A DNA stretch of 64,000 bases from Micromonospora avicenniae (GTDB lineage Bacteria > Actinomycetota > Actinomycetes > Mycobacteriales > Micromonosporaceae). Made by a program: the position numbers and the translations under genes. The stretch covers positions 1 through 64,000 of the forward strand of contig NZ_FTNF01000009.1 of assembly GCF_900156065.1 (NCBI RefSeq), in the 5' to 3' direction. A model generated the notes under the pieces. That model searched no databases. It was not told the DNA's origin and saw only the letters and a program-made list of their open reading frames with translations. Shown here piece by piece: positions 19,277 through 43,693 of this stretch (position 1 is the first letter of the stretch; each line of letters starts with the position of its first letter).

Positions 19277-19981
19277 GTGACGGAGATCGACTGGACGCGG
19301 CTGCGCGCCGCCGCCACCGAGGTGATGCGGCATGCGTACGCCCCATACTCGAAGTTTCCGGTCGGAGCGGCCGGTCTGGTCGACGACGGCCGGGTGGTGG
19401 TCGGCTGCAACGTGGAGAACGCCGCGTACGGGGTGGTGCTCTGCGCCGAGTGCGGTGTCGTCTCCTCGCTGCACGCCACCGGCGGGGGCCGGCTCGTAGC
19501 GCTCTCCTGCGTCGACGCGACCGGGGAGCCGCTGATGCCGTGCGGCCGGTGCCGGCAGCTGCTCTGGGAGAACGGTGGTCCGGAGTGCCTGATCGAGACG
19601 AAGGGGCGCCCGCTGCGGATGGCCGAGCTGCTGCCGCACGCGTTCGGCGTCGAGGACCTGGAGGCGGTGGTCGGGGAGACCCCGCTGCCGGTGGTGCCGG
19701 AGCGGTTGGCCGCCTGGCGCGGCCGGGGCACGGTCTTCGTGCATCCGGATCTCTCCGCCGGCCAGCAGGTCTGGACGGCGTACTGGGAGCGGTCGGCGGG
19801 GGACGACGCGGGGGCCGAAACCGGTGTGCTGGAGGAAGGGCCGAGCTGGGACGACCCGGCCGAGGCGATCACCTGGGGGCTGGCCCGTACACCCCGGGTG
19901 GTGGTGGTCGACGCGAGCGGCACCATCTTCTGGGCGGGCGAGGGCGAGCCGCCGATGGAGATCCCGGTCCGCTGGGGTTGA
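19277..19981 (+). CDS. cdd: cytidine deaminase with C-terminal extension
   Basis: 234 residues; deaminates cytidine and deoxycytidine to uridines. Zinc-site residues C56 and E58 (CAEC), C89 and C92 (PCGRCRQ) and the substrate motif GCNVENAAYG are all present in residues 1-125. Tetrameric Cdds are about 130 residues, so residues 140-234 are an additional domain with a WTAYWERSAGDD segment and an RVVVVDASGTIFWAGEGE end that I do not recognise. GTG 19277 fits the family start. Downstream of the nucleoside transporter and upstream of deoA. Confidence 0.93.
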   Translation: MTEIDWTRLRAAATEVMRHAYAPYSKFPVGAAGLVDDGRVVVGCNVENAAYGVVLCAECGVVSSLHATGGGRLVALSCVDATGEPLMPCGRCRQLLWENGGPECLIETKGRPLRMAELLPHAFGVEDLEAVVGETPLPVVPERLAAWRGRGTVFVHPDLSAGQQVWTAYWERSAGDDAGAETGVLEEGPSWDDPAEAITWGLARTPRVVVVDASGTIFWAGEGEPPMEIPVRWG

Positions 19982-20020
19982 TCGTGGTTCAGCTTCGGAG
20001 CCGGGGCCGGTCGAGCGTGG

Positions 20021-20092
20021 GGATCGGGCCGACCATCACCGGCTCCGGGCGGTCAGGCTTGATCCCTCCGCCGGTGACGGTCGGCCCGATCC
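20021..20092 (-). repeat. 72-nt hairpin element, copy 1
   Basis: Arms 20021-20043 and 20070-20092 pair over 23 bp with one mismatch; the loop is 26 nt (20044-20069). On the minus strand the loop begins GGAGGGATCAAGCC and ends CGCCCGGA, and the mismatch becomes a G.U pair. The loop is identical to that of the element at 42781-42852 although the stems differ. It lies between cdd and deoA. Confidence 0.8.
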
Positions 20093-20192: not shown

Positions 20193-21473
20193 ATGAGTGC
20201 TCTCACTGCGGTTGATGTCATCCGGACCAAACGGGACGGGGGCGTGCTGTCGGACGACCAGATCGACTGGGTGATGGACGCGTACACCCGGGGGCAGGTC
20301 GCCGACGAGCAGATGTCCGCGCTGGCCATGGCGATCCTGCTCCGCGGCATGACCGGTCCGGAGATCGCCCGGTGGACCGCGGCGATGATCGCGAGCGGCG
20401 AGCGGTTGGATCTCTCCGCCGTCGACCGGCCGACCGTGGACAAGCACTCCACCGGAGGTGTCGGCGACAAGATCACTTTGCCGCTGACCCCGCTGGTGGC
20501 GGCCTGCGGTGCGGCGGTGCCGCAGCTCTCCGGGCGCGGCCTCGGGCACACCGGAGGAACGCTGGACAAGCTCGAGTCGATCCCGGGCTGGCGGGCGACG
20601 CTCACCAACGACGAGTTCATCGGCCAGCTGCGCGACGTGGGAGCGGCGATCTGTGCGGCCGGTGCCGGGCTCGCCCCCGCCGACCGCAAGCTGTACGCGC
20701 TGCGTGACGTGACCGGCACCGTCGAGGCGATCCCGCTGATCGCCAGTTCGATCATGAGCAAGAAGATCGCCGAGGGGACCAGCGCTCTGGTGCTCGACGT
20801 CAAGGTCGGCTCGGGTGCCTTCATGAAGTCCGTCGAGCAGGCCCGCGAGCTGGCCCGCACGATGGTCGAGCTGGGCGGGGCGCACGGGGTGCGGACTGTC
20901 GCGCTGCTCACCGACATGTCCACCCCACTCGGTCTGGCGATCGGCAACGGTGTCGAGGTCGCCGAGTCGGTCGAGGTGCTGGCCGGTGGCGGCCCGACCG
21001 ACGTCCTGGAGCTGACCCTGGCCCTCGCCCGGGAGATGCTCGACGCCGCCGGCCTCAGCGACGCCGACCCGCAGGTGGCGCTCCGCGACGGCCGCGCCAT
21101 GGACGTGTGGCGGGCGATGATCCGCGCCCAGGGCGGCGACCCGGACGCTCCGCTGCCGACCGCTCCGGAGATCGAGACGGTCCGGGCGGAGGCCGACGGC
21201 CACGTCGAAGCGATCGACGCGTACGCCATGGGGGTGGCCGCGTGGCGACTCGGCGCGGGTCGCGCGCGCAAGGAGGACCCGGTGAGTGCCCCGGCCGGTG
21301 TGGTGCTGCACAAGCGGCCCGGCGACCGGGTGCGTGCCGGTGAGACCCTCTACGAGTTGCGGGCCGAGCAGGCCGATCGGATTCCCGCGGCGATGGCCGA
21401 GGCCGCCGGCGCGGTGCGGATCTCCGAGACGCCCCCGGTCGGTCGGCCCCTGGTGATCGAGCGGATCGGCTGA
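20193..21473 (+). CDS. deoA: thymidine phosphorylase
   Basis: 426 residues; converts thymidine or deoxyuridine plus phosphate to base and deoxyribose-1-phosphate. The phosphate-binding signature KHSTGGVGDK near residue 84 and SGRGLGHTGGTLDKLESIPG near 113 are diagnostic of the nucleoside phosphorylase II family; the C-terminal barrel-hammerhead domain (GVVLHKRPGDRVRAGETLYE) is complete. ATG 20193 follows AAGGA by about 12 nt. A 211-nt gap containing the hairpin element separates it from cdd, so it may have its own promoter. Confidence 0.95.
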   Translation: MSALTAVDVIRTKRDGGVLSDDQIDWVMDAYTRGQVADEQMSALAMAILLRGMTGPEIARWTAAMIASGERLDLSAVDRPTVDKHSTGGVGDKITLPLTPLVAACGAAVPQLSGRGLGHTGGTLDKLESIPGWRATLTNDEFIGQLRDVGAAICAAGAGLAPADRKLYALRDVTGTVEAIPLIASSIMSKKIAEGTSALVLDVKVGSGAFMKSVEQARELARTMVELGGAHGVRTVALLTDMSTPLGLAIGNGVEVAESVEVLAGGGPTDVLELTLALAREMLDAAGLSDADPQVALRDGRAMDVWRAMIRAQGGDPDAPLPTAPEIETVRAEADGHVEAIDAYAMGVAAWRLGAGRARKEDPVSAPAGVVLHKRPGDRVRAGETLYELRAEQADRIPAAMAEAAGAVRISETPPVGRPLVIERIG

Positions 21474-42205: not shown

Positions 42206-42697
42206 CTACCTGTCCGCTGGCTCGTCAGCCGAGGTCGGGCGGTCGGCCCTCGTGCTGGTCGGCGCCTCGACCCGATCGGCCAACGCGCCGGCCCGCCCGG
42301 CCCCGCCTGTCGCGTGCTCGACCGGCGACACCCCCGTGGCCTCGGCGGAGAGAGCGGCGCGGAGCACTTCGGCCTCCGTGCCGGTCACCGAGCGGGCGAA
42401 GCGCACCAGCGCCGCGTCCCGGCTGCCGCCGAGGTCGAGCGCGTCGAGCATGAGCTGGGCGATGTGCGCCTCGCGGCTGGCCGCGGCCCGGTAGCGCCAG
42501 GCCCGCCCCTCCCGCTGGCGCTGCACCATGCCCTTGCCGGCCAGCCGGTCCAGCACCGTCATCACGGTGGTGTAGGCCAGCTCCCGGCCGGCCAGCGCGT
42601 CGGCGACCTCGCGCACGGTCACACCGTCGGACGTGCTCGGGACCGAGTCCCACAGCACGTCCATCACCGCACGTTCGAGATCACCGAGCCGAGTCAC
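42206..42697 (-). CDS. blaI: BlaI/MecI-family repressor
   Basis: 163 residues. The winged helix is clear: RLGDLERAVMDVLWDS, VTVREVADALAGRELAYTTV, VLDRLAGKGMVQRQREGRAW. The dimerisation helices follow, and the last 40 residues are a low-complexity tail. GTG 42697 has only a weak site (CAGG). A CTACC-N3-GGTAG dyad at 42707-42719 directly precedes it, consistent with autoregulation. Probable targets are its own operon and cydABDC. Confidence 0.9.
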   Translation of the reverse strand: MTRLGDLERAVMDVLWDSVPSTSDGVTVREVADALAGRELAYTTVMTVLDRLAGKGMVQRQREGRAWRYRAAASREAHIAQLMLDALDLGGSRDAALVRFARSVTGTEAEVLRAALSAEATGVSPVEHATGGAGRAGALADRVEAPTSTRADRPTSADEPADR

Positions 42698-42780: not shown

Positions 42781-42852
42781 GGTTTCCGGGGGAGCCCGCC
42801 CACGGAGGGATCAAGCCTGACCGCCCGGAGTGGGTGGGCTCCCCCGGAAACC
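42781..42852 (+). repeat. 72-nt hairpin element, copy 2
   Basis: Arms 42781-42803 and 42830-42852 pair over 23 bp with one G.U (plus-strand RNA); the loop 42804-42829 is 26 nt, beginning GGAGGGATCAAGCC and ending CGCCCGGA. The loop is identical to that at 20044-20069 read on the minus strand, but the stem sequence is unrelated. It lies between the aldehyde dehydrogenase-like gene end and blaI. Confidence 0.8.
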
Positions 42853-42868
42853 CGGCGGTGACCCGCGA

Positions 42869-43693
42869 TCACACCCCCTTCGGATGCCAGACCGTCTTCG
42901 TCTCCAGCAGCGTGGTCATCCGGGTCACTCCGGGGTCCGCGAACCAGTCGTGGTCGGCCGGCGCCGGCCTGAGCACCCGCTTCAGGTTCTCCGCGGCCTT
43001 GATCTCCAGCTCTGCCGCCAGCCCCGCGTCAGCCACGCCGGTCAGGTCGATGGCGTTGACGTCCATGTGCGCGGCGAGCGTCGGCACCGTCTCGCTGATC
43101 TTCCCGGTGAGGAGGTTGACCACCCCGCCGGGCAGATCCGAGGTGGCCAGCACCTCGGCCAGGGTGATCGCCGCCAGCGGCTCCGCGGGCGAGGCCGCCA
43201 CCACGACGGTGTTGCCGGAGACGATGGCCGGGGCGATCACGCTGACCAGCCCGAGCAGCGCCGGCCGCTCCGGGGCGACCACGGCCACCACGCCCGTCGG
43301 CTCCGGCGCGGAGATGTTGAAGTAGGGGCCCGCGACGGGATTCGCCCCGCCGTACACCTGGGCGAGCTTGTCGGACCAGCCGGCGTACCAGACCCAGCGG
43401 TCGATCGCCGCGTCCACCTCCTCGCCCGGCACGCCCAGCGCCACGAACTGTTCCCGCCGGCCCTCCAGCATCTCGGCGACGCGGTAGAGGACCTGACCCC
43501 GGTTGTACGCGGTCGCGCCGGCCCACCCCTTCACGGCGGCGCGGGCGGCGACCACTGCGTCGCGCGCGTCCTTGCGGGAGGAGAGGGCGACGTTGGCGTC
43601 CTGCACGATGTACGACCGTCCCGACTCGCTGCGCGGGAACTTCCCGCCGATGTAGAGCTTGTACGTCTTGCGTACCGCGACCCGCTCAGACAT
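42869..43693 (-). CDS. truncated aldehyde dehydrogenase-family protein
   Basis: 274 residues. It has the N-terminal strand (YKLYIGGKFPRSESGRSY) and most of the NAD-binding domain (GVVAVVAPERPALLGLVSVI; GNTVVVAASPAEPLAAITLA), but the catalytic-Cys domain is missing: after VNLLTGKISETVPTLAAH it jumps to a short end, TTLLETKTVWHPKGV. Ordinary family members are 470-500 residues. Start 43693 overlaps the 3' end of the full-length dehydrogenase gene by 8 nt. Codon use is normal, so it looks like a maintained short form rather than a decayed gene, perhaps a partner subunit. Confidence 0.8.
   Translation of the reverse strand: MSERVAVRKTYKLYIGGKFPRSESGRSYIVQDANVALSSRKDARDAVVAARAAVKGWAGATAYNRGQVLYRVAEMLEGRREQFVALGVPGEEVDAAIDRWVWYAGWSDKLAQVYGGANPVAGPYFNISAPEPTGVVAVVAPERPALLGLVSVIAPAIVSGNTVVVAASPAEPLAAITLAEVLATSDLPGGVVNLLTGKISETVPTLAAHMDVNAIDLTGVADAGLAAELEIKAAENLKRVLRPAPADHDWFADPGVTRMTTLLETKTVWHPKGV

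Follow-up and report, generated by a model that had tools for sequence, protein, structure and literature searches.

The two intergenic hairpins found in the window, the whole 64,000-nt stretch of Micromonospora avicenniae DNA that was analysed, belong to a family of small DNA elements that is apparently undescribed so far. The members have a nearly invariant core in the loop and a stem whose sequence varies but stays paired, and they fold under selection on one strand, which is usually antisense to the gene that they adjoin. There is good support for the existence of the family, and the mechanism that we infer for it, a one-way boundary at the ends of genes, is put forward tentatively.

The hairpins of the window and their relatives

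A first-pass annotation of the window had described both hairpins, and they exist where it placed them, with the geometry and the identical, oppositely oriented loops that it gave (Table 1). Both are 72 nt long, with 23 stem pairs each around the 26-nt loop GGAGGGATCAAGCCTGACCGCCCGGA. Each stem departs once from perfect pairing, and when read in the orientation of the loop the departure is a G.U pair. The number of matches to the loop expected by chance, estimated from dinucleotide shuffles of the window, is 0. The folding z-scores of the two copies range from -5.8 to -7.8, and the predicted hairpin is very stable on either strand. No other conserved loop stands out among the long hairpins of the same DNA. 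The longest perfect stem of the window, a 25-bp hairpin with the loop GCCC at 2175-2228, looks like an ordinary strong terminator.

The 26 nt are not an open loop: they fold by themselves into a GGG/CCC and a UCA/UGA helix, and covariation in other copies backs both. In the core of copy 1 the pairs are 1-20, 2-19 and 3-18, followed by 5-14, 6-13 and 7-12, and AGCC forms the tip. Pair 1-20 changes from G-C to A-U in some copies, pair 6-13 from C-G to G-C in Trueperella and in an Actinomycetaceae MAG, and pair 7-12 from A-U to G-C in the genome of the window itself.

Table 1. The two copies of the element in the window and their neighbours; gene names were read from the translations.
Feature	Position	Strand	Remark
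Copy 1, whole hairpin	20021..20092	- (core strand)	Covariance model R1, 80.0 bits
Copy 1, stem arms	20021-20043 + 20070-20092		
Copy 1, conserved 26-nt loop GGAGGGATCAAGCCTGACCGCCCGGA	20044..20069	-	
Copy 1, near-invariant 20-nt core	20047..20066	-	
G/T-rich spacer from cdd stop codon to copy 1	19982..20020	+	
Cytidine deaminase-like gene (cdd)	19277..19981	+	3' end adjoins copy 1, core antisense
Thymidine phosphorylase-like gene (deoA)	20193..21473	+	Downstream neighbour of copy 1
Copy 2, whole hairpin	42781..42852	+ (core strand)	Covariance model R1, 81.4 bits
Copy 2, conserved 26-nt loop	42804..42829	+	Same sequence as copy 1
Copy 2, near-invariant 20-nt core	42807..42826	+	
Spacer from copy 2 hairpin to stop codon of aldehyde dehydrogenase-like gene	42853..42868		
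Aldehyde dehydrogenase-like gene	42869..43693	-	3' end adjoins copy 2, core antisense
BlaI/MecI-like regulator gene	42206..42697	-	Downstream neighbour of copy 2

The genome of the window contains seven copies by pattern search and eight by the covariance model, the eighth being a diverged copy at C23:195536-195596. Among GTDB genomes at least 119 stretches carry the 20-nt core GGGATCAAGCCTGACCGCCC, mostly in Micromonosporaceae. In this family 204 of 355 genomes have a match, with at most 31 copies per genome, and a reversed-pattern control in the same 355 genomes stays near zero. Presence is patchy among genomes. Pattern matches sampled across the phylum are at background level, and the covariance model finds none in 294 genomes of the phylum outside this genus. 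Trueperella bonasi has five exact and three variant copies, and one Actinomycetaceae MAG has four exact and two variant ones, with unrelated stem sequences in both genomes; 197 other genomes of the order of T. bonasi lack the element. In the MAG, loci L472-L474 show a second core type, AGGG(C/A)TTCAAGCCTGACG(A/G)ACC, with the same style of stem. Only TCAAGCCTGAC is common to both core types, which makes the apical hairpin the most conserved part.

No Rfam family matches above its gathering score, and a permissive search returns only sub-threshold matches, mostly to microRNA hairpins. Neither the sequence nor a description of the element was found in the open literature searched.

Fixed core, paired stems and strand polarity

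The exact core is present in 249 of 271 non-redundant copies. Almost all copies have a stem, with a modal length of 24 bp, and in the main there are no loop copies without inverted repeats, one of two signs of an ordinary dispersed repeat that the annotation had named. Among 42 divergent copies, 98.7% of the pair cells hold standard pairs, and the compensatory changes that were looked for affect both sides of 17 of the 18 stem pairs. The stem covariation score is 0.705 against 0.151 after shuffling, and 0 of 500 shuffles reach it; slid controls are 34-48% paired. The covarying helices exceed the control, as is asked of a structured cis-RNA, and the pairing shows that the stem is selected as a stem. 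At orthologous sites the loop has diverged by 0-0.5% and the stem by 5-19%, and the flanks can no longer be aligned. The loop is therefore constrained in place, which agrees with the claim that it is the constrained part.

A chance origin is rejected by the shuffled window, by the folding z-scores and by the stem covariation. An inert, decaying repeat that has no function would fit the patchy presence and the losses by deletion; against it stand the near-identity of loops whose stems and flanks have diverged and a covariation that shuffling never matches. Chance and inert decay are together extremely improbable.

The two stems of the window look unrelated as a pair, as the annotation stated. 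Across the 249 copies the statement fails: a diffuse consensus is visible (GG at the outer end, ...CCCGC/CCGGC or CCCAC at the inner end, and a closing C-G in 99%), and the stems group in families that are common to orthologues and to copies within one genome. Identical stems, the second sign of an ordinary repeat, are in the main not seen, since stems differ widely, and yet these families exist. The copies are not independent inventions. Duplication, which the annotation had excluded, is back in place in view of stem families within and between genomes, inherited orthologues, and insertions and remnants in one gene. The element is both selected as a hairpin and dispersed as a repeat.

Folding is selected on the core strand. 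The departures from pairing were counted after the removal of related copies by average linkage. On the core strand there are 71 G.U against 21 A.C departures (p=1.6e-7), so that the strand picked by the annotation is the one with the stabler mismatches, and 27 G.A against 9 C.U (p=0.004); G.G and C.C do not differ. The strand bias remains without the three hottest positions (p=0.009). A mutation bias linked to transcription is disfavoured as the cause of this polarity. Such a bias would call for the opposite of the G/T-rich flanks seen on the mRNA strand. The G.U:A.C counts, which are similar whether the context is tandem (31:7) or convergent (34:4), also argue against it, as does the persistence of the polarity in Actinomycetaceae (13 against 3, part of these copies sharing ancestry) despite the mixed gene orientation of the copies there. 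The apical pair 5-14 behaves differently: its changes give wobble pairs on the mRNA strand and no pairing on the core strand, and consequently the inner loop has no consistent polarity. Where the stem is perfect, folding is slightly better on the mRNA strand than on the core strand.

Dispersal and comparison with known repeats

In several species a MidA-like methyltransferase gene contains two in-frame copies in opposite orientations. Elsewhere this gene has one copy, remnants from internal deletion, or sites that apparently were never occupied. In-frame insertion into coding sequence, a trait of Rickettsia palindromic elements (RPE), is found at these two sites and is rare among the copies. 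With its flanks, the inserted unit seems to measure about 110 nt. In the MidA-like gene of the genome of the window (L002, 2080-2160) the 3' arm and the next ~48 nt are tandemly duplicated and the frame is kept. The cdd-deoA hairpin occurs in about 20 Micromonospora species and is cleanly missing from others. Related genomes thus show insertion polymorphism, a trait of MITE, at both the MidA-like gene and the cdd-deoA site. At the hairpin site of the cdd-deoA region, two species (L181 and L184) carry a different insert with a common palindromic stretch, GGAAATAGTGCCC...GGGGACTACTTCC, which may represent a further family of small repeats. Head-to-tail copies with a period of 59-111 bp, in which neighbours share or lose an arm, occur in L477, L479, L480 and L358 and suggest that the element slips or duplicates locally.

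No target-site duplication was established, the sites being too diverged to define edges, and no parent IS was found for the element. Viral contigs contain one match to the 20-mer core and 65 matches to the relaxed 17-mer; all of them lack a flanking stem, and blastn against plasmids and phages gives partial, weak matches only. A phage or plasmid origin was rejected on these results. The Y1 transposase domain PF01797 occurs in 9 of 30 genomes. The genome of the window has one such gene (G000:C38:40546-40911), which is not near any copy found.

In a mobile element acting as single-stranded DNA, in the manner of REP/REPIN, IS200/IS605 or attC, a transposase or recombinase would act on the folded core strand, and selection on mobility would maintain the folding. 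Such an origin would explain dispersal, insertion polymorphism and strand-specific folding, and the motifs that recur at the foot of the hairpin on the core strand (GACCAC 5', GCAACC 3') also favour it. A precedent exists in TnpA-REP (RAYT) proteins, which read the REP hairpin as single-stranded DNA, on one strand, through its loop and stem irregularities (PMC8266576). Nevertheless, selection through mobility alone does not account for a loop that is conserved at old sites of vertical descent, where the stems stay site-specific. Moreover, Y1 transposases are missing from most genomes that are rich in copies, two genomes without copies have them, and phages and plasmids yielded no copies. This origin of the selected folding is distinctly unlikely.

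Usually the stem of a bacterial palindromic repeat is conserved and its loop drifts. The element reverses this pattern, and its fixed loop and free stem, together with its orientation rule, set it apart from the known palindromic repeats. It works most like the small ones (RPE, REP, SPRITE). RPE are small palindromic repeats found between genes and in frame in protein-coding sequence (PMC10969869, PMC2229807). The element is likewise small, palindromic, dispersed between and inside genes and capable of in-frame insertion. RPE differ in being ~105-150 bp long and reported mainly inside genes, and the element differs from them in its fixed loop, its compensating stems and, as a rule, its placement in one orientation behind stop codons. 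With REP/REPIN it shares the form of a short hairpin between genes. Unlike them, it conserves the loop and not the stem, has 7-30 copies and not hundreds, and is not co-distributed with a Y1 gene. Flank logos show no GTAG-like or other fixed tetranucleotide at the hairpin foot, and membership of REP/RAYT was rejected on both the foot and the Y1 distribution. MITE-type repeats (Correia/NEMIS, RUP, SPRITE) are small, non-autonomous long hairpins; NEMIS RNA is a proposed RNase III substrate, and SPRITE are terminator-like by name. The element is also small and folds as a long hairpin, but its stems are not conserved terminal inverted repeats.

Three other systems share some traits. The cyanobacterial SDR4-6 of Nostoc are tiny dispersed elements of 21-27 nt whose common structure, as here, is kept by compensatory changes; they have no known orientation rule 3' of genes. 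Integron attC sites lie directly behind a stop codon in fixed orientation, have a variable stem and are folded on the strand antisense to the gene. Their conserved R boxes are in the stem, whereas the element conserves the loop, and the genes upstream of it are housekeeping genes of the chromosome whose synteny is conserved, which argues against integron cassettes. The eukaryotic IRE, a protein-bound RNA hairpin, has the same fixed loop and free but paired stem; unlike the IRE, the element has a gene set without a theme, and its binding protein is only putative.

Gene ends and a possible one-way boundary

By our own codon-usage caller, whose gene calls are approximate, the adjoining upstream gene in Micromonosporaceae lies on the anti-core strand, so that the core is antisense to it, in 194 of 223 cases, and the stem follows the stop codon at a median of 21 nt. 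Convergent intergenic regions are enriched (89/163 against 56/246 controls, p=7e-11). In 81 of the 89 convergent cases the element adjoins the gene antisense to the core, and the stop of the converging gene is a median of 129 nt away. Close pairs run core-minus then core-plus because two convergent genes each carry one element. The aldehyde dehydrogenase-like site of copy 2 is common to eight species. In Actinomycetaceae, about half of the copies occupy the 5' region of a gene instead, with the core in the sense direction. One T. bonasi copy (L350, 1460-1720) lies directly before a TATAGT box, a riboswitch-like stretch, by eye presumably a TPP riboswitch, and a transporter-like gene.

On the core strand the flanks are poor in U and rich in C and A, which sets them apart from ordinary 3' UTRs. 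The motif GGTTGC occurs in 56 of the 249 upstream flanks; among control 3' UTRs, 7 of 245 have it. The G/T-rich spacer at copy 1 is an instance of this element-specific composition, which is found family-wide. As in intrinsic terminators, a GC-rich hairpin stands just behind the stop codon. No U-tract lies directly 3' of the hairpin on either strand in the 249 copies, the longest T run in 12 nt being 0-2 in 233 of them on the mRNA strand and in 248 on the core strand; a plain intrinsic terminator was therefore rejected. High-GC actinobacterial terminators often have no U-tracts. No promoter motif was found on the core strand. A depletion of TANNNT relative to mononucleotide shuffles was set aside, as TA is rare in this DNA.

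An element acting in the sense direction, in the 3' UTR of the adjoining gene's mRNA, might be an exonuclease barrier, a U-less terminator or a binding site that marks a regulon; E. coli REP elements serve as 3' exonuclease barriers or U-less terminators. The position just behind the stop codon, the fixed orientation to the upstream gene and the stability on both strands agree with it, as do the slightly better folding of the mRNA strand in perfect stems and the 5-14 changes that keep pairing on that strand only. The stem departures, on the other hand, favour the opposite strand, and a simple barrier or terminator has no need of an invariant loop. The 183 upstream proteins fall into 84 unrelated clusters with no visible functional theme, and a regulon by gene function was rejected for that reason. 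The sense reading is, on balance, fairly unlikely. A site at which a protein binds double-stranded or cruciform DNA, concerned for instance with topology or chromosome organisation between convergent genes, would suit the convergent enrichment, the invariant core and the irrelevance of transcription direction in Actinomycetaceae. It would neither be expected to produce a strand-polar spectrum of mismatches nor need compensatory stem changes, and is highly unlikely.

The reading that we prefer, possible though less likely than not, is a dispersed, strand-specific boundary hairpin whose RNA form halts transcription into a gene and whose core is read by a factor. The fixed loop and the fixed orientation behind stop codons suggest that the loop is probably read by a cellular factor. 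This putative factor, probably encoded on the chromosome, would bind the single-stranded, folded core strand via the apical loop. Less certainly, the working form would be RNA made in the core direction, either readthrough of the converging gene or an antisense RNA. Such RNA would fold at the edge of the gene, and the hairpin would stop or trim transcription there, giving a one-way boundary. The Actinomycetaceae copies that are core-sense in front of a gene would also act as a barrier. We infer that this boundary is the most economical role.

Several observations count against the boundary: the opposite orientation of the two copies inside the MidA-like gene, the wobble of pair 5-14 on the mRNA strand, and the convergent enrichment, which may reflect avoidance of promoter regions. 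As no promoter motif was found on the core strand and no U-tract on either strand, RNA in the core direction is hypothetical, and elements in tandem contexts are unlikely to act by intrinsic termination. The broader claim, that this is a new kind of mobile hairpin, in which a core on the antisense strand is read by a dedicated factor and stops antisense or convergent transcription at gene ends in Micromonosporaceae and some Actinomycetaceae, is somewhat unlikely as a whole.

That the loop is under strong selection at old chromosomal sites implies the existence of a specific, so far undescribed reader. The approximately 270 sites are a testable set for how high-GC actinobacteria mark the ends of transcription units. 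Micromonospora and Actinoplanes are genera used for antibiotic production, and the elements may serve as compact insulators.
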